Below are positions 22,536 to 49,650 of a stretch of 64,000 nt of DNA, piece by piece. Source of the stretch: Paracoccus sp. MA. GTDB taxonomy: Bacteria > Pseudomonadota > Alphaproteobacteria > Rhodobacterales > Rhodobacteraceae. The translations under genes and the position numbers were made by a program. Below the pieces are notes generated by a model. It was not told the DNA's origin and made no database searches. It was given only the letters and a program-made list of their open reading frames with translations. Positions within the stretch are counted from its first letter, which is position 1. Each line of letters begins with the position of its first letter. Location of the stretch: the NCBI RefSeq assembly GCF_020990385.1, contig NZ_CP087599.1:1-64000 (forward strand), written 5' to 3'.

Positions 22536-22637
22536 ACCGCCCGGGTTCTTTGCGCCGGGCACGATTTTCGTCCCGGTCCGGGGAACCGCAGCGGCGGGCA
22601 GAGGTTGCGTGGCGAAACAGTTCCTTGCGGAAACCGG

Positions 22638-24101
22638 ATGGTGATGAGTCCCGAGACCCTGCTGCAACCCGGGCGGAACTGCTGGCGCATCGCGCCGGCA
22701 GAGCGTTTCGCCTTTATCGTCGATGCCGCCGACTATTTCCTGACCGCCCGCCGGGCCATGCTCAAGGCGCGGCGCTCGATCATGCTGATCGGCTGGGATT
22801 TCGACGCAAGGATCGAGATGGGACAAGCCGGGGACGGCGGCCCCGCGCGGCTGGGCGACTTCATCCTCTGGCTGGCTGATCGCAGCCCGGCGCTGGAAAT
22901 CCGCCTGCTGCGCTGGGATACCGGCGCCGTCAAGGCGATGTTCCGCGGCAATACGCTCTGGACGATCCTGCGCTGGAAGGCGCATCCGCGCATCACCCTG
23001 CGGCTGGACGGCGCCCATCCGCCGGCCGGCTCGCATCACCAGAAGATCGTGGTGATCGACGATTGCCTGGCCTTTTGCGGCGGCATCGACATGACCGTCG
23101 AACGCTGGGACCGGCGCGAGCACCTGGATGACGACCCGCGCCGCATCGGGCCGGGCGGCCGCCCGCACGACCCCTGGCACGACGCCACCAGCGCCTTCGA
23201 CGGAGAGGCGGCGCGCGCGATGGGGGATCTGGCCCGCGCGCGCTGGCGGGCCGCGACCGGCGAGACGCTGCCGGCCTGCGAGGATTGCCACGATTGCTGG
23301 CCGGAAGGATTGCGGCCGACCTTCACCGACATCCGCCTGGGCATCGCCCGCAGCATCCCGGCGATGGACGGGGTCGAGCCGGTGCACGAGATCGAGGCCG
23401 CCTATCTGGACCTGATCGCCGGGGCCGAGCGGATGATCTATGCCGAAAGCCAGTATTTCGCCTCGCGCCGGATCGCCCATGCCATCGCCCGCCGGCTGGC
23501 CGGCGAGAACCCGCCCGAGATCGTCATCGTCAACCCCCATACCGCCAACGGCTGGCTGGAGCCGCTGGCGATGGACACCGCCCGGGCGCGGCTGGTCGAG
23601 GCCCTGCGCCGGATCGACTGCCGGGGCCGCCTGCGCATCTATCATCCGCAGACCCGGGGCGGGGCGGGGATCTATGTCCATGCCAAGGTCATGGTGGTGG
23701 ACGACCGGGTGCTGCGGGTCGGCTCGTCGAATTTCAACAACCGCTCGATGCGGCTGGATACCGAATGCGACGTGATCCTGTCGGCCGACGAGCCGGGCAA
23801 TGCCCATGCCGCTTCCCGGATCGCGGCGCTGCGCGACGACCTGCTGGCCGAGCATCTGGGTGTGACCGCGGAGCAGGTGGCGGCGAAGCTTGCCGAGACC
23901 GGCTCGCTGATCGCCACGGTCGAGGCGCTGCGCGGGCCGGGCCGCAGCCTGGTTCCCTATCGCGTCCCCGAACTGACCGGCATCGAGGAATGGCTGGCCG
24001 AGAACGAGATCCTCGACCCGAACGGCCCCGAGGAGATCTTCGAGAGCACCGCGAAACGCGGGCTGTTCAAGGGCTGGGGCCGGCTGCGCCGCCGGGCATA
24101 G
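22638..24101 (+). CDS. Phospholipase D family protein (cardiolipin-synthase-like)
   Basis: 487 residues from ATG 22638; ATG 22644 is two codons later. Two HKD motifs are present: HHQKIVVIDD around residue 138 and HAKVMVVDD around 350, each followed by the downstream Gly-Gly/Ser and Asn-type residues (FCGGIDMT, VGSSNFNNRSM). They form one active site for phosphodiester transfer or hydrolysis. There is no N-terminal membrane span, unlike classical ClsA, so it is more like soluble ClsB/ClsC or PLD-like lipases. A Cys-rich piece (CEDCHDC) lies between the two halves. Convergent with the repair operon downstream. Confidence 0.85.
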   Translation: MVMSPETLLQPGRNCWRIAPAERFAFIVDAADYFLTARRAMLKARRSIMLIGWDFDARIEMGQAGDGGPARLGDFILWLADRSPALEIRLLRWDTGAVKAMFRGNTLWTILRWKAHPRITLRLDGAHPPAGSHHQKIVVIDDCLAFCGGIDMTVERWDRREHLDDDPRRIGPGGRPHDPWHDATSAFDGEAARAMGDLARARWRAATGETLPACEDCHDCWPEGLRPTFTDIRLGIARSIPAMDGVEPVHEIEAAYLDLIAGAERMIYAESQYFASRRIAHAIARRLAGENPPEIVIVNPHTANGWLEPLAMDTARARLVEALRRIDCRGRLRIYHPQTRGGAGIYVHAKVMVVDDRVLRVGSSNFNNRSMRLDTECDVILSADEPGNAHAASRIAALRDDLLAEHLGVTAEQVAAKLAETGSLIATVEALRGPGRSLVPYRVPELTGIEEWLAENEILDPNGPEEIFESTAKRGLFKGWGRLRRRA

Positions 24102-24140
24102 CGGCGGTGCCGGTCGGGCGGGGCGGTCCCGGACCCTATG

Positions 24141-25607
24141 TCAGGCGGCTCCGGCCGCGCCGCTGATCCGGAAGGCGCCGGCCAGGTCGGCGGCCAGCTG
24201 CCGCCGGGCCTGCGCCTGCCGGGCGGGATCGGGCAGGCGCAGGATATGGGCGGGATGCCAGGTGACCAGCACCGGCCCGCCATGCAGGCCCGTCTCGACC
24301 CCGCCCCGCCGGGCGGCGAGCGCGCCGTCCCGTTTCGTCAGCGCATAGGCCGCCGAGGCGCCGAGGGCCAGCACCGCGCCGGGGCGGATCAGGCCCAGCT
24401 CCTGACCCAGCCACCAGCGGCAAAGCCGGATCTCCTGCCGGTCGGGATTGCGGTGCAGCCGCCGCTTGCCGCGCGGCGCGAACTTGAAATGCTTCACCGC
24501 ATTGGTCAGCCAGACCTGCGCCGGGTCCACCCCGGCCTCGGCCATGACCGCGCGCAAGAGCTGGCCCGCAGGCCCGACGAAGGGGCGGCCCTCCAGATCC
24601 TCGCGGTCACCGGGCTGCTCGCCCACGATCATCAGCCGGGCATCGGGCGCGCCCTCGCCCCAGACAGTCTGCGTCGCCGCCTCGCACAGCCCGCAGCGGC
24701 GGCATTGCCGCGCGCCGGCGCGGGCCTCGTCCAGCGTTTCGGGCAGCATTTCGGGCAGCATTTCGGGCTGGTCGGGCAGCCGGGGCAGGCCGGCGCGGTA
24801 GCGGGCGGAAACGGCGGCGGCGCCGGGTCGGGGCAAGGTGGCCCCGGCCTGACGCATCCGCTCGACCCGCGCGCCGGCATCCTTCAGCATGGCGGGGATC
24901 AGCCGGGTCTCGGGCAGGTTCTTCCAGTATTTCCTGGGCATATGCGACCGCATCGCGTCCTGCTTGACCCGCGCCGGGTTGAAGATATTCGCGAAATAGG
25001 TCGCCCAAAGCGCCTCGGCGCCATCCTCGGGCAGGTCGGGCCTGGTGCCGCCGGGGCCGAAGCCGAGCCGTCCGTCGCGGAAACGGGCGGTCAGGCGCGG
25101 TGTGGCGATCATCCAGTCCATGTCGGCGAAACGCTCGGCAAAGAAGCGGCTGCCGGGCTCCAGCGTGTTGTGCCCGGGTTCGAACCATGCGGCGAAGCGG
25201 CGGCGCGGACCCTCGGCCGGGATCTCGCGGAAACGCAGGAAGGCATGCATCTTGTGGATGTCGCGCTCGACCGATTTCGCCATCAGAGCCAGCCGCCGGC
25301 CCAGGGGATCGGCCTGCGACAGCGGATCGCCCTGCCGGCGGTCGATGCGCCACAGCGCCTGATAGAGCAGCCCGAAGCGCGCCGGCGCGGAATGCCAGAT
25401 CACCGACCGGGCCAGCGCCATGAAGGCCGGCGGCACCCGGGCGCGATGGCTGCCCGGGGCCGGGGGCAGGGGACCGGCCGCGAAAAGCCCGGCGGCTGCC
25501 TCCCAGTCGATGGCTTCGGGCGGGATGCGATGCGAGATCGCGACGCGCGCGGCGTCGTGCCAGGCCTCGAAGGTGCCGCATTCGGGCAGGGGGGCGGCGT
25601 AGTTCAC
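24141..25607 (-). CDS. UdgX-type uracil-DNA glycosylase fused to DUF4130-like domain
   Basis: 488 residues from a GTG that overlaps the TGA of the radical SAM gene. Residues 1-270 form the DUF4130-type domain found with these enzymes (DIHKMHAFLRFREI, HNTLEPGSRFF, MPRKYWKNLPET). The C-terminal part is a family 4-like uracil-DNA glycosylase: Cys302, Cys305, Cys308 and Cys396 as likely iron-sulfur ligands, motif GEQPGDREDLEGRPFVGPAG at 329-348, TNAVKHFKF, and HPAH at 451-454. The insert KRRLH at 381-385 matches the KRR(I/L)H loop of UdgX, whose His links covalently to the abasic sugar after uracil removal. With the SOS box upstream of the operon, a role in damage repair is strongly suggested. 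Confidence 0.88.
   Translation of the reverse strand: MNYAAPLPECGTFEAWHDAARVAISHRIPPEAIDWEAAAGLFAAGPLPPAPGSHRARVPPAFMALARSVIWHSAPARFGLLYQALWRIDRRQGDPLSQADPLGRRLALMAKSVERDIHKMHAFLRFREIPAEGPRRRFAAWFEPGHNTLEPGSRFFAERFADMDWMIATPRLTARFRDGRLGFGPGGTRPDLPEDGAEALWATYFANIFNPARVKQDAMRSHMPRKYWKNLPETRLIPAMLKDAGARVERMRQAGATLPRPGAAAVSARYRAGLPRLPDQPEMLPEMLPETLDEARAGARQCRRCGLCEAATQTVWGEGAPDARLMIVGEQPGDREDLEGRPFVGPAGQLLRAVMAEAGVDPAQVWLTNAVKHFKFAPRGKRRLHRNPDRQEIRLCRWWLGQELGLIRPGAVLALGASAAYALTKRDGALAARRGGVETGLHGGPVLVTWHPAHILRLPDPARQAQARRQLAADLAGAFRISGAAGAA
24738..24768 (-). repeat. Short in-frame 12-base tandem repeat
   Basis: Two full and one partial copies of a 12-base unit give the residues MLPEMLPE inside the UdgX fusion, in the linker between its two domains. 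Being in frame, it only changes linker length. Confidence 0.6.
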
Positions 25608-26803
25608 AGCAGGCGCAGCTGCTTGGCCGGCGGGGCGAAGCGGGCGCGCAGGCCGGCGCTGTCGGTCAGCTTGCCGGGCGACCAGCCGGGCAGGGTGATG
25701 AAGGGCTGCGCCTTCTTCATCGCCGCGCCCATGCGGGCCAGGTCCTCGTATCGCAGCGCGCGGTTTGCGCGCGCGGCGATGATCCGCTCGACGGTGCGGC
25801 TGCCGAAGCCCGGAACCCGCAGCAGCATGTCCCGGCTGGCGCGGTTCACCTCCAGCGGGAACAGCCCGCGATGGCGCAGCGCCCAGGCGAGCTTCGGGTC
25901 TAGGTCCAGATCCAGATGGCCGGCCGTCGCGCCCGCCGCGATCTCTTCGGCGGTGAAGCCGTAGAAGCGCAGAAGCCAGTCCGCCTGATAAAGCCGATGC
26001 TCGCGCAGAAGCGGCGGCCGGACCAGCGGCAGCGCCGCCGAGGCGTCGGGGATCGGCGAGAAGGCCGAGTAATAGACCCGCCGCAGCCCGTAGCCCGCAT
26101 AAAGCCGGCTGGCGCTGTTCAGGATCGTCACGTCGTCCGCGCCGTCCGCGCCGACGATCATCTGCGTGCTCTGCCCGGCCGGGGCAAAGGCCGGGGCCGG
26201 GCGGCCGCTGTGGCTTTTCTCCTGCGCGGCCTCGCTTTCCAGCCGCACCTGCGCCATGGCGTTGCGGATGGTTTCGGGGCGCTTCTCGGGGGCGAGCTTG
26301 CGCAGGCTGACATCCTGCGGCAGTTCGACATTGATCGACAGCCGGTCGGCCCAGAGCCCGGCCTCGCGGATCAGGTCGGGCGCGGCGTCGGGAATGGTCT
26401 TCAGGTGGATATAGCCGCGAAAGCCGTGCCCCTCGCGCAGGGTCCGGGCGATGCGCACCATCTCGGCCATGGTCTGGTCGGGCGAGCGGATGATCCCCGA
26501 GGAGAGAAACAGCCCCTCGATATGGTTGCGCCGATAGAATTCCAGCGTCAGCGTGACGACCTCTTCGACGGAAAAGCGCGCCCGCTCGACATTCGACGAC
26601 ACGCGGTTGACGCAATAGGCGCAGTCGAAGATGCAGAAATTGGTCATCAGGATCTTCAGCAGCGAGATGCAGCGCCCGTCCGGCGTATAGGCGTGGCAGA
26701 TTCCCGAAGACCCGTCCCGGCCGCCGCCCGACGCGCAGGAGGCGTCGTATTTCGCCGCATCCGCAAGGATGGCGAGCTTGTCCTGAAGAGTCGTCCTTGC
26801 CAT
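25604..26803 (-). CDS. Radical SAM protein, putative DNA modification/repair
   Basis: 399 residues. The radical SAM cluster motif is C57-x3-C61-x2-C64 (NFCIFDCAYC). A Cys-rich N-terminal part precedes it (CASGGGRDGSSGICHAY). Strands of the partial TIM barrel follow (EGLFLSSGI, YIHLKTIP, LSINVELP, QMIVGADGADD). The C-terminus carries a helix-hairpin-helix DNA-binding element, LLRVPGFGSRTVERIIAAR. This matches the family annotated as putative DNA modification/repair radical SAM proteins, which is usually encoded next to the DUF4130/UdgX fusion, exactly as here. The chemical reaction is not established. First gene of a two-gene operon with an SOS box 16 bases before its start. Confidence 0.87.
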   Translation of the reverse strand: MARTTLQDKLAILADAAKYDASCASGGGRDGSSGICHAYTPDGRCISLLKILMTNFCIFDCAYCVNRVSSNVERARFSVEEVVTLTLEFYRRNHIEGLFLSSGIIRSPDQTMAEMVRIARTLREGHGFRGYIHLKTIPDAAPDLIREAGLWADRLSINVELPQDVSLRKLAPEKRPETIRNAMAQVRLESEAAQEKSHSGRPAPAFAPAGQSTQMIVGADGADDVTILNSASRLYAGYGLRRVYYSAFSPIPDASAALPLVRPPLLREHRLYQADWLLRFYGFTAEEIAAGATAGHLDLDLDPKLAWALRHRGLFPLEVNRASRDMLLRVPGFGSRTVERIIAARANRALRYEDLARMGAAMKKAQPFITLPGWSPGKLTDSAGLRARFAPPAKQLRLL

Positions 26804-26818
26804 GCGGGCAAGTTAGAT

Positions 26819-26833
26819 GTTCACGGAATGTTC
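26819..26833 (-). promoter_or_regulatory. SOS (LexA) box of the radical SAM/UdgX operon
   Basis: GTTC ACGGAAT GTTC is a perfect copy of the alphaproteobacterial LexA direct repeat GTTC-N7-GTTC (GAAC-N7-GAAC on the coding strand). It lies 16-30 bases upstream of the ATG of the radical SAM gene and would overlap its promoter. LexA repression and induction by DNA damage are therefore expected for both repair genes. Confidence 0.8.
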
Positions 26834-26867
26834 GTCAATTCGCCAAGCCGCCCCCGTCGCCCCGGCC

Positions 26868-27626
26868 TCAGCGCAGCACTCTGCGCAGCCCCTCCTGCAC
26901 CTTCAGGAGCGCGGGCAGGTAAAGCGCCGCCAGCTCACCGGCCGAGGATTGCACCGCCGCCACCCCGGTGTTCAGGGCCGCCACCACCCGGCCATGCGCG
27001 TTGCAAAGCGGCACGGCAAGCGAGCGCAGGCCCAGCTCGACCTCCTGGTCGATCACCGCATGGCCCTCGGCGCGGGCCTGCCGGATGCGCGCCATGATCT
27101 CCTCCGGCGCCGTCAGGCTGTGCGGGGTGCGCGGCGTCAGGTCGGACCGCTCGACGATGGCGCGCGCCTCGGGCTCGGGCAGGGCGGCCAGCAGCACCCG
27201 GCCCATCGAGGTGCAATGCGCCGGCAGCCGCGAACCCGGCATCAGCCCGATGGACATCACCCGCCTTTGCGCCGCCCGCGCCAGATAGACGATCTCGGTC
27301 CCGTCGAGGATCGAGACCGAGGTGGATTGCCCGATCTGCTCGGACAGCTGGTCCAGCCAGGGCTGCACCAGCTGCGCCAGCGGCAGCGCCGCCAGCGCCC
27401 CCATGCCCAGCCGCAGGATGCGCGGCGTCAGGGTGAAGAACTTGCCGTCGTAATCGGCATAGCCCAGCTCGTGCAGGGTCAGCAGGCAGCGCCGCGCCGT
27501 CGCCCGGTCCAGCCCCGTCGCCTCGGCCACCTCGGCGATGGAAAGCCGCGGGCGTTCCGCCCGGAACGCCTCGATCACGCCAAGCCCCTTGGCCAGCGAG
27601 GCGATAAAATCGGTCTTGTTCACCAT
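26868..27626 (-). CDS. IclR-family transcriptional regulator (PcaR/PobR-like)
   Basis: 252 residues from ATG 27626; GTG 27632 is an alternative. N-terminal winged helix (ASLAKGLGVIEAFRAERP, LSIAEVAEATGLDRATARRC) and a C-terminal IclR effector domain (VQPWLDQLSEQIGQSTSVSI, CTSMGRVLLAALP, GLRSLAVPLCNAHGRVVAA). The spacing and the FFTLTPRILRLG stretch resemble the PcaR/PcaU branch that responds to beta-ketoadipate or protocatechuate. The gene is divergent from pcaIJF, the expected target, with a 108-base shared spacer. An activator role is known for PcaR in other proteobacteria and inferred here. Confidence 0.87.
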   Translation of the reverse strand: MVNKTDFIASLAKGLGVIEAFRAERPRLSIAEVAEATGLDRATARRCLLTLHELGYADYDGKFFTLTPRILRLGMGALAALPLAQLVQPWLDQLSEQIGQSTSVSILDGTEIVYLARAAQRRVMSIGLMPGSRLPAHCTSMGRVLLAALPEPEARAIVERSDLTPRTPHSLTAPEEIMARIRQARAEGHAVIDQEVELGLRSLAVPLCNAHGRVVAALNTGVAAVQSSAGELAALYLPALLKVQEGLRRVLR

Positions 27627-27635
27627 GCGCACAGC

Positions 27636-27662
27636 ATTTTACGCAGTTTGAACAAATGTCAA
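27636..27662 (-). promoter_or_regulatory. Candidate promoter of the IclR gene in the pca divergent spacer
   Basis: On the minus strand TTGACA (27657-27662) is followed after 15 bases by TAAAAT (27636-27641). Spacing is slightly short and the expected start of transcription nearly coincides with the start codon, so the mRNA would have almost no leader. The sequence between, with GTTCAAAC, is a candidate regulator site. Confidence 0.35.
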
Positions 27663-27734
27663 CATCCGCACGAAATCTCTGGCATCACGACGGCCATGCG
27701 CGCATGACATCCCCGGAACCCGCAGGAGGAGTTC

Positions 27735-28484
27735 ATGGACAAACGCATCCCCAACTTGGCCGAGGCGGTCGCCGGCATCCCGGACGGCGCGACGGTGATG
27801 ATCGGCGGCTTCGGCGGCTCGGGCGCGCCGATCGAGCTGATCCACGCGCTGATCGACCGCTATCTGGCCACCGGCAGCCCCGGAAACCTGACCGTCATCA
27901 ACAACAACGCCGGCAACGGCCATGTCGGCATCGCCGCGATGATCGAGCAGGGGATGGTCCGCAAGATGGTCTGTTCCTTCCCGCGCTCGGCCGATCCGCG
28001 GGTCTTCACCGAGAGATATCTGGCCGGAAAGATCGAGCTTGATCTGGTCCCGCAGGGCACGCTGGCCGAGCGTATCCGCGCCGGCGGGGCGGGCATCCCG
28101 GCCTTCTACACGCCCACGAGCTTCGGCACCGATCTGGCGCGGGGCAAGCCGGTCGCCGAGTTCGACGGGCGGTCCTATGTGCAGGAACGCTGGCTCAAGG
28201 CCGATTTCGCGCTGATCAAGGCCGAGCTGGGCGATCATTACGGCAACCTGACCTATCGTATGGCGGCGCGGAACTTCTCGCCCCTGATGGCGATGGCGGC
28301 GGCGCGCACCGTCGCGCAGGTGACGCGGGCGGTCGCGCCGGGCGGCATCGACCCGGAAGCCGTCGTGACGCCGGGCATCTTCGTCTCCGGCATCGTCGAG
28401 GTCGCGAACCCGGCGCAGGAAGAGGCGCTGAACCGTGCCGAGGCGGCCCATCCCCCCGCCCGTTCCCAGGAGGTGCAGGCATGA
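27735..28484 (+). CDS. pcaI: 3-oxoadipate CoA-transferase subunit A
   Basis: 249 residues, ribosome site AGGAGGAG before ATG. Class I CoA-transferase alpha subunit: AVAGIPDGATVMIGGFGGSGAPIELI at the N-terminus carries the glycine-rich CoA-binding pattern GGFGGSG, followed by LTVINNNAGNGHVG and a DFALIKAELGD segment. It transfers CoA from succinyl-CoA to 3-oxoadipate, the next-to-last step of the beta-ketoadipate pathway, as a heteromer with the next gene product (ATGA-type overlap). The C-terminal extension after the core makes it a little longer than usual. Order pcaI-pcaJ-pcaF with a divergent IclR regulator supports the specific assignment over acetoacetate CoA-transferase. Confidence 0.88.
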   Translation: MDKRIPNLAEAVAGIPDGATVMIGGFGGSGAPIELIHALIDRYLATGSPGNLTVINNNAGNGHVGIAAMIEQGMVRKMVCSFPRSADPRVFTERYLAGKIELDLVPQGTLAERIRAGGAGIPAFYTPTSFGTDLARGKPVAEFDGRSYVQERWLKADFALIKAELGDHYGNLTYRMAARNFSPLMAMAAARTVAQVTRAVAPGGIDPEAVVTPGIFVSGIVEVANPAQEEALNRAEAAHPPARSQEVQA

Positions 28485-44034: not shown

Positions 44035-44799
44035 TCAGCCTGTCGCCTCGTCCGGCTGACGGATCAGCGCGGCGCCCCGGATCTGGTCCAGCGTGCCGCT
44101 GGTCGCCATGGCGCGGGACAGGTTGTGCTGCGACAGGCGGGCATGCTCGCGCATAATCGCCTCGGCGCGCGCGCCCTGGCGCTGGCGGATCGCCTCGACC
44201 ACGATGCGGTGGTGGTCCTGGCCGATCAGCAGATGCTGCCTTGCCGCGCGGTCGCTTTCATACATCCCGACCAGCGCGCTGGCCGAGGCGAAGGGCCGGC
44301 CGTTGGCGCGCGCCGCCTCCTGGATCAGCAGGCTGCTTTCAGTGGCGTTGACCAGCCCCTGATGAAATTCGGCGTTCAGCCGCTCATAGATCGGCAGGTT
44401 GGTGCGGGCGAAGTCCTCCTTGGCCAGCAGGGCGGCGATGCGGTCCGAGATGCCGGCGATGCGGTCGATGGCGTCGGCAGCGGTGCCGCGCTCGGCCAGC
44501 AGTCGCACGCAGAAGCCCTCGATCATGCCGCGCAGCTCGATCGCCTCCGAGATCTCGCTGGGCAGGAACTGGCGCACCATGTAGCCGCCCGCGGCGATCG
44601 GGCTGAGCAGGCCTTCGTCGGTCAGGCGCTGCAGCGCGGCGCGGATGGGCGTGCGCGACATCGACAGCATCTCGGCCAGCTGGGTCTCGGTATAGCGCTG
44701 ATCGGGCTCCAGCCGGCCGCCGATGATCATGTCGCGCAGCGTCATGGCGGCGCGCACCGTCTGCGTGGTGCCGGTCCTGAGCGGTTCTCTGCTGTTCAT
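44035..44799 (-). CDS. GntR-family transcriptional regulator (FCD type), first gene of the ABC/P450 operon
   Basis: 254 residues from ATG 44799, with GGGAG nine bases upstream; an earlier in-frame ATG at 44841 lies inside the promoter. N-terminal winged helix (TLRDMIIGGRLEPDQRYTET, LAEMLSMSRTPIRAALQRL) and an FCD effector domain (ISEAIELRGMIEGFCVRLL, NAEFHQGLVNATESSLL, DHHRIVVEAIRQRQGARAEA). It probably senses the imported aromatic acid. Three GTATAC palindromes lie upstream, the nearest over its own -10 element, so it should repress itself and the whole operon. Confidence 0.9.
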   Translation of the reverse strand: MNSREPLRTGTTQTVRAAMTLRDMIIGGRLEPDQRYTETQLAEMLSMSRTPIRAALQRLTDEGLLSPIAAGGYMVRQFLPSEISEAIELRGMIEGFCVRLLAERGTAADAIDRIAGISDRIAALLAKEDFARTNLPIYERLNAEFHQGLVNATESSLLIQEAARANGRPFASASALVGMYESDRAARQHLLIGQDHHRIVVEAIRQRQGARAEAIMREHARLSQHNLSRAMATSGTLDQIRGAALIRQPDEATG

Positions 44800-44820
44800 T
44801 GCGCGTTCTCCCTGCATGTT

Positions 44821-48696: not shown

Positions 48697-49650
48697 CTAC
48701 CCCAGCTTCCCTCGTTGCATCATGGGCGTTACTCCGAAAGCGGTCCGGTAGACGCGTGAGAAGTTGCCAGGGTTGTCGAAACCGCACGACAAGGCGATAT
48801 CGGTGACCGACATTTCGGTCTGGAGAAGGAGATGCCTGGCCTTCTCCAGGCGCATTTCCATAAAATATTTCTTTGGCGCCGTATTCAGATATTTTCCGAA
48901 CAGCCGTTCCAGCTGCCGCGTCGAAATTCCGATCTTGCGAGCGATCGCCGACGGAGGGATCGGATCATCCAGACGTTCGCGCATGATCTCGATAGCGCGA
49001 ACAAGATGAGAATTTCGCATTCCGCTTCGGGATTGCAACGAGACCTTCTGGGCGGAAGATGAGCCGCGAACCGCATTATAGACCATCTGGTCGGAAACCG
49101 CGACGGAAAGGTCGTAGCCATGTTCCTGTTCTATCAGGTTCAACATCAGGTCCGCGGTGGCCGTTCCGCCGGACGCGGTGATATATTTCTCGTCGGCGAC
49201 GAAGACGTTCCGCACCAGGTTGACCTCCGGAAACTCCTCCATGAAACTGTCGTGGTATTCCCAATGAATGGCGGCCTGCTTGCCGTTCAGCAATCCGGCT
49301 TTTGCCAGAACATAGGCACCGGAACACAGGGCTCCGATTTTCGTTCTTCCGCCTCGATCCAGGGTGCGAAGGCTGGCGATCAGGTTACGGAAATCCTTGT
49401 GCCGCATGTTGATGCCCGAAAGGACGAATACCCGGTCGCACGGGGGAATGCTTTCGAACCTGTGCTGAACGACAATTGCGGTGCCGTCCGAGCTGATGGC
49501 GGTTTCCCCGTCCAGGGAAGCATAGGACCAGCGATACAGTTCCTTGCCGCTGATCAGATTGGCGATCCGGAGGGGATCGACGGCGCATGCAAAGGCAAGA
49601 TGCGTATAGTCCTCGACAAGCGCGAAGACAAAATGTTGCGGTTTTGACAT
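48697..49650 (-). CDS. GlxA-family AraC-type transcriptional regulator (GbdR-like)
   Basis: 317 residues. N-terminal DJ-1/PfpI-like (GATase1) domain at about 1-190 (FVFALVEDYTHLAFACAVDP, GALCSGAYVLAKAGLL, TASGGTATADLMLNLI) and a C-terminal AraC helix-turn-helix pair (IARKIGISTRQLERLFGKYL, SVTDIALSCGFDNPGNFSRV, YRTAFGVTP). This layout is that of GbdR and CdhR, activators of betaine and carnitine breakdown. It lies between the hpbD cluster and the Rieske demethylase genes and is the best candidate activator for both. Local G+C is visibly lower than around it. Confidence 0.88.
   Translation of the reverse strand: MSKPQHFVFALVEDYTHLAFACAVDPLRIANLISGKELYRWSYASLDGETAISSDGTAIVVQHRFESIPPCDRVFVLSGINMRHKDFRNLIASLRTLDRGGRTKIGALCSGAYVLAKAGLLNGKQAAIHWEYHDSFMEEFPEVNLVRNVFVADEKYITASGGTATADLMLNLIEQEHGYDLSVAVSDQMVYNAVRGSSSAQKVSLQSRSGMRNSHLVRAIEIMRERLDDPIPPSAIARKIGISTRQLERLFGKYLNTAPKKYFMEMRLEKARHLLLQTEMSVTDIALSCGFDNPGNFSRVYRTAFGVTPMMQRGKLG

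Follow-up and report, generated by a model that had tools for sequence, protein, structure and literature searches.

A radical SAM and DUF4130-UdgX operon of Paracoccus sp. MA with a conserved SOS box, invariant cysteines and a candidate clamp-docking tail

The closest described system to the locus treated here is the two-gene COG1573-COG4277 operon of Bacteroidetes SOS networks, for which LexA control was predicted, and the same regulation was reported for Verrucomicrobia and Alphaproteobacteria with reference to Erill 2016 and the 2008 paper on the Caulobacter SOS regulon (PMC8565304; papers given by PMC number are cited for the parts of their text that were available). We analysed a stretch of 64,000 nucleotides of Paracoccus sp. 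MA (NZ_CP087599.1, positions 1 to 64,000, hereafter the window), in which a box of the type GTTC-N7-GTTC stands before a gene for a radical S-adenosylmethionine (SAM) protein and a gene for a DUF4130-UdgX fusion. The two families are the same and so is the predicted or reported control, but the Paracoccus operon represents an additional copy in which DUF4130 is fused before UdgX, and the passages on the COG1573-COG4277 operon make no mention of the clamp tail and the cysteine trio described below. The link to LexA is not new for the family, since it is already published (PMC8565304). Hence, the window locus is a new addition to a known regulon, whereas the tail and the trio are features for which we found no precedent.

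The pair CAC3343-CAC3344 of Clostridium acetobutylicum combines a like-named radical SAM protein with a protein of unknown function under predicted LexA control (PMC3828012), but it belongs to another phylum with another LexA motif, and UdgX is not mentioned in the available part of that paper. The uracil-DNA glycosylase (UDG) domain of the window protein matches UdgX of Mycobacterium smegmatis (6ail and others) at E 2e-67 and carries GEQPG and KRRLH; unlike that protein it is fused to DUF4130 and encoded in an operon with a radical SAM gene. The histidine of the R-loop forms the covalent bond in UdgX, and the in vivo role of UdgX remains open (PMC10359453). Radical SAM proteins, an operon, SOS or DUF4130 were not found mentioned in the available parts of two UdgX papers (PMC10359453; PMC10776899). 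DUF4130 was predicted to be an enzyme related to mutagenesis and was linked with radical SAM photolyases as well as uracil glycosylases (PMC3765255). In Acinetobacter Tol 5, a like-named radical SAM protein was reported to increase upon desiccation (PMC13130816).

The SOS box and its conservation

The sequence-only reading of the window had proposed direct LexA control and a search for the box before orthologous operons. Such boxes were found: among the 157 alphaproteobacterial loci where a homologue occurs, 155 show a perfect box between -150 and +40 relative to the start, as against 0, 0, 0, 1, 1, 2 and 4 matches for seven decoy patterns on the same loci. The 157 include the window, a second copy of the operon on contig C2 of the same genome, one viral contig (L060) and some copies that are broken or truncated; many of the loci are close relatives and thus no independent events. 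One row (L189) duplicates the C2 copy (L006) and was removed before counting, and 11 partial radical SAM matches below the cut-off and without a tblastn match (L049-L059) stand outside the underlying 158-row locus table. Within the genus Paracoccus the family occurs in 41 of 61 genomes, with a perfect box in all 30 loci first fetched, and the box was present in each of the five named loci checked, i.e. P. denitrificans PD1222, Ketogulonicigenium vulgare, Ensifer, Leisingera and Phaeobacter. The homologue in L060, which is 61% identical and has a perfect box, was the only one in a scan of the viral_contigs and tells little about phages. Three radical SAM copies are fragmentary or broken (L048, L186, L188), and two of them, L186 and L188, retain a perfect box.

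The host's own SOS genes carry boxes of the same type, at C2:841774-841788 for lexA (C2:841048-841740) and at C2:690216-690230 for recA (C2:690338). A title cited in PMC1839093 indicates that the SOS box of P. denitrificans has been determined by experiment. The orthologue comparison together with the boxes before recA and lexA strongly supports LexA control, and we regard direct control of the operon as very likely; what the sequence-only reading had posed as open is thus well backed, though it had already been published for the operon family (PMC8565304).

The operator type changes with the clade, while control of the operon, as judged from these motifs, stays conserved. Among 21 loci of Pseudomonadota outside the Alphaproteobacteria, 14 have a perfect CTGT-N8-ACAG, the LexA consensus of the E. 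coli type, and four further loci have it with one mismatch; the decoys and the alphaproteobacterial box each gave 0 of 21 (G633, one of 22 such genomes over the cut-off, is not among the loci counted). Of the 70 loci treated as Bacteroidota, 22 contain CTAA-N5-TTAG (0 to 2 for the decoys) and 17 at least two GGA-N5-TCC (decoys 0), so that 39 have either motif; both are Bacteroidetes LexA motifs of PMC8565304. This set was drawn from the best 80 homologue loci of the genome_contigs, ten of which were set aside as non-Bacteroidota by record title (L193-L197, L212, L252, L253, L267, L271), and one member titled Algicola (L260) is doubtful.

Some loci at the border of these sets deserve mention. 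L267, a metagenome-assembled genome labelled Saccharospirillaceae, has two GGA-N5-TCC sites, the Bacteroidetes motif, and is either a misbinned contig or a case of transfer. Furthermore, the radical SAM proteins of the Psychrobacter/Moraxella type (L061, L193-L197) are 66-68% identical to those of the Chryseobacterium type and approximately 50% to those of the other Pseudomonadota compared. These identities, together with the missing tested boxes in L061, suggest that the genes moved between phyla. The 14 loci of the Chryseobacterium-Epilithonimonas-Cloacibacterium group (L198-L211) retain the tail Q-L-x-L-F, and upstream pieces resembling TTGATAACTT and TTTTGGAA are shared among them as judged by eye.

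In the window, the radical SAM gene and the fusion gene form a two-gene operon with overlapping stop and start. The box lies exactly where the sequence-only reading had placed it, and the following features make up the control region and the operon:

26819..26833, reads GTTCACGGAATGTTC on the + strand and GAACATTCCGTGAAC in the operon sense (-): SOS (LexA) box GTTC-N7-GTTC, perfect match
25604..26803, - strand: radical SAM gene, 399 amino acids, start ATG, stop TGA; TIGR03916 (rSAM_link_UDG; COG4277 by literature) and PF04055
24141..25607, - strand: DUF4130-UdgX fusion gene, 488 amino acids, GTG start at 25607; TIGR03915 and TIGR03914
26833..26838, - strand: TTGACG, possible -35 element, taken from the gene-sense sequence by the familiar consensus
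26810..26815, - strand: TAACTT, weak possible -10 element with three of the six bases of the familiar consensus

The radical SAM protein exceeds the curated NCBIfam cut-off of TIGR03916 clearly (553.1 bits versus 343.5), and the fusion protein does so for DUF4130 (TIGR03915, 175.8 bits, cut-off 112.25; PF13566, 119.5, cut-off 27) and for UdgX (TIGR03914, 274.1 bits, cut-off 189.95). The overlap of the radical SAM stop with the fusion start holds as described before, TGA and GTG sharing the bases GTGA. The distance of 16 bases between box and radical SAM gene needs a small correction, the box being close upstream, separated from the ATG by 15 bases, and 16 being the count to the first base of the box. 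Since TTGACG and the weak TAACTT flank the box at a spacing of 17 bases, which the box would fill, LexA may be able to sit on the promoter. TTGACG also precedes the box in the P. denitrificans, Ketogulonicigenium and Ensifer loci. A family-wide promoter spacing is not claimed, because in a scan of 134 same-orientation rows 71 yielded none at the thresholds applied, while the promoters of the others were scattered over several offsets.

The radical SAM protein

Two features of the radical SAM protein bear on its possible function, the C-terminal tail and a set of invariant cysteines:

25607..25621, - strand: codons for the last five residues, QLRLL; putative beta-clamp-binding motif (Q-L-x-L-F in the family consensus)
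26612..26635, - strand: codons for C57-x3-C61-x2-C64, radical SAM cluster motif, present in 251 of 251 aligned homologues
26669..26737, - strand: stretch that contains the codons for C23, C36, H37 and C45, possible second Fe-S site, each residue present in 251 of 251

The tail sits at the very end of the protein behind a variable, proline-rich linker, in which the commonest residue at the five positions ahead of the tail reaches just 97 to 138 of 251 sequences. Across the same alignment the first tail position is Gln in all 251, the second Leu in 220 (Met in 21), the third free, the fourth Leu in 243 and the last Phe in 189 (Leu 39, Ile 17, Trp 6). Strict Q-L-x-L-F fits 156 of 171 tails and 71 of 80 in the best 80 genome_contigs loci; seven of 178 proteins were excluded from the conservation counts because of their length (L047, L048, L120, L124, L130, L186, L188). 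Q-L-x-L-F, often at the C-terminus, is a beta-clamp-binding consensus, and QLSLF the full consensus of the published binding tests (PMC4549789). QLSLF is also the commonest tail form in this family. Hence, the tail looks like the published beta-clamp-docking signal, by which the enzyme may bind the clamp. Neither a clamp tail of the TIGR03916 family nor its cysteine trio and histidine were found in print by our literature search, which covers few subscription journals.

The tail could also serve another purpose in an operon that is LexA-controlled all the same, namely to dock DUF4130 or to close the radical SAM barrel, the enzyme then not being clamp-bound. An obligate pair of radical SAM protein and DUF4130 may need a contact of this kind, and clamp docking is a prediction from the sequence pattern. 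We consider this reading unlikely, as a terminal Q-L-x-L-F with a free third position after a variable linker is precisely the published clamp motif, and the pattern persists from Pseudomonadota to Bacteroidota.

Besides the radical SAM cluster motif, the invariant C23, C36 and C45 together with H37 suggest a second Fe-S cluster. In a fold comparison, HydE, lipoyl synthase and biotin synthase were the top matches listed; they span residues 4-280 at 8-19% identity and barely cover the C-terminal part of the window protein. The helix-hairpin-helix of the sequence-only reading, which would lie in this part, is supported weakly, Pfam HHH_5 scoring 21.9 bits versus a gathering score of 27. These folds also bear on a second alternative, in which the radical SAM enzyme reverses pyrimidine dimers in the manner of spore photoproduct lyase, with UdgX unrelated in substrate. 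DUF4130 has been tied to SplB-like radical SAM photolyases (PMC3765255), and SplB (COG1533) and COG4277 are both listed as SOS genes, but as separate families (PMC8565304). The top folds among the matches listed belong to other enzymes, and spore photoproduct lyase is absent among the 50 matches listed, though such a listing is not decisive and excludes nothing. The extra cysteine trio is, to our knowledge, not a feature of the lyase. Altogether, a lyase-like reaction appears distinctly unlikely.

DUF4130 as partner and UdgX as accessory

The sequence-only reading had suggested a two-protein system for lesion processing, which stands in part. Among 349 Pseudomonadota genomes, TIGR03916 was found in 70 and TIGR03915 in all of these 70, with TIGR03915 alone in only three further genomes. 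UdgX (TIGR03914) is over the cut-off in 68 of the 349 genomes, 54 of them within the 70; it is below the cut-off in the other 16 and thus not at the heart of the system. Because of these 16 genomes UdgX cannot be essential, and the pairing of 70 of 70 versus 54 of 70 makes radical SAM and DUF4130 the core, to which UdgX is added as an accessory. As far as gene content tells, the former are an obligate pair and UdgX is optional; UdgX as an obligatory partner was rejected.

The KRRLH loop noted before is present in the window fusion:

24453..24467, - strand: codons for KRRLH (residues 381-385), UdgX R-loop

The loop histidine is kept in 113 of 114 long fused proteins. Motif A reads GEQPG in 93 of them, including the window copy, and the window UdgX domain would trap an abasic site covalently. 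For DUF4130, no solved relative was found by sequence up to E 0.1, all 30 listed stretches falling in the UDG part, and a viral fold search with the fusion protein gave mainly UDG-type matches.

The genome counts make it very unlikely that the radical SAM enzyme serves UdgX, e.g. by releasing or processing the covalent UdgX-DNA cross-link. In 129 of 158 locus rows, and so in most Alphaproteobacteria, UdgX is indeed fused or lies adjacent, as such a role would have it, but by the cut-offs used the 16 radical SAM genomes lack UdgX, and 14 of the 68 UdgX genomes lack the radical SAM gene.

Proposed mechanism and further observations

We consider it probable that the operon encodes a LexA-induced, clamp-docked radical SAM repair enzyme with DUF4130 as its partner and often with a uracil/abasic-site trap. 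In this view the two genes form an SOS operon, with the box as its LexA operator. After damage, RecA filaments trigger the self-cleavage of LexA, by which the promoter becomes free. The operon would be induced once LexA is gone, and both proteins may be made in a coupled fashion owing to the overlap of stop and start codon. With its C-terminal tail the radical SAM protein would dock on the beta sliding clamp, and would thus act at sites where lesions are encountered by replication or translesion polymerases. The protein may hold two Fe-S clusters, one binding SAM and a second held by C23, C36 and C45, perhaps with H37, and would use the 5'-deoxyadenosyl radical on the damaged nucleotide, with DUF4130 as a fixed partner acting on the lesion. 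The fused UdgX of most Alphaproteobacteria would excise uracil, hold the abasic site covalently and shield it while the core acts. The chances are about even that this extends to a broad SOS class, in which two-cluster TIGR03916 proteins sit on DnaN via Q-L-x-L-F and act with DUF4130 on lesions at stalled or translesion forks, with UdgX as a bolt-on trap.

The tail and the cysteines make the long-standing question of the function of this family testable. A clamp-docking tail, if true, puts radical chemistry at replication forks. LexA control that holds in several clades despite their differing motifs would mark the pair as a conserved component of the response to DNA damage, and the core for study is the radical SAM protein with DUF4130, not the accessory UdgX.

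A number of findings weigh against this mechanism. The box is missing in L032 and in the fragment L048, CTGT-N8-ACAG in L061, L115 and L127 (3 of the 21 other Pseudomonadota loci), and both Bacteroidetes motifs in 31 of 70 Bacteroidota loci, including all 14 of L198-L211. No promoter spacing around the box is shared across the 134 same-orientation loci. The strict tail pattern fails in 15 of 171 and in nine of 80 proteins (one of the nine via a bad start pick), and the window copy itself departs from Q-L-x-L-F with Leu for Phe. The predicted structure model contains no clusters and is of low confidence at residues 25-36. Finally, 16 of the 70 TIGR03916 genomes have no UdgX-domain match over the cut-off, and 19 of the 114 fusions have GEAPG, the ordinary family-4 form of motif A.

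A single box by itself is weak evidence, because the genome holds 104 perfect matches versus 58 for the reversed control pattern (1.8-fold), but a chance match at 26819-26833 is practically ruled out, since the orthologue comparison decides (155 of 157 versus decoys of 0 to 4) and other clades carry their proper LexA motif in place of the box. The window has three perfect matches versus 0.59 expected, and 2 of 100 shuffles reach three. The other two, at 44794-44808 over the 5' end of one open reading frame and at 49456-49470 inside another, are probably due to chance.

The operon of the window is an additional copy, independently placed beside the one on C2 (C2:273441-276094), which comprises a radical SAM gene (C2:274910-276052), DUF4130-UdgX and its own perfect box GTTCTTGTTATGTTC at C2:276080-276094. 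The two radical SAM copies do not group as sisters in a FastTree tree, but with low support values around the window copy (0.69, 0.60, 0.56) a horizontal origin is only a suggestion. A third UdgX-domain gene (C1:578613-579200, 292 bits) has no perfect box within 9 kb in the matches listed. An Rfam search of positions 24000-28000 gave no match.

The P. pantotrophus plasmid pPAN2 shares neighbouring pca genes with the window, but its displayed 19 kb lack such an operon. A PLD-like gene (Pfam PLDc_2, 22605-24101) lies on the UdgX side of the window operon and, behind one other gene, also on that side in P. denitrificans plasmid 1 (L190). On the other side, both have an IclR-type regulator, which does not imply orthology of the neighbours. 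The pieces adjoining the operon match P. pantotrophus plasmids at 94.3% in the DNA comparison.
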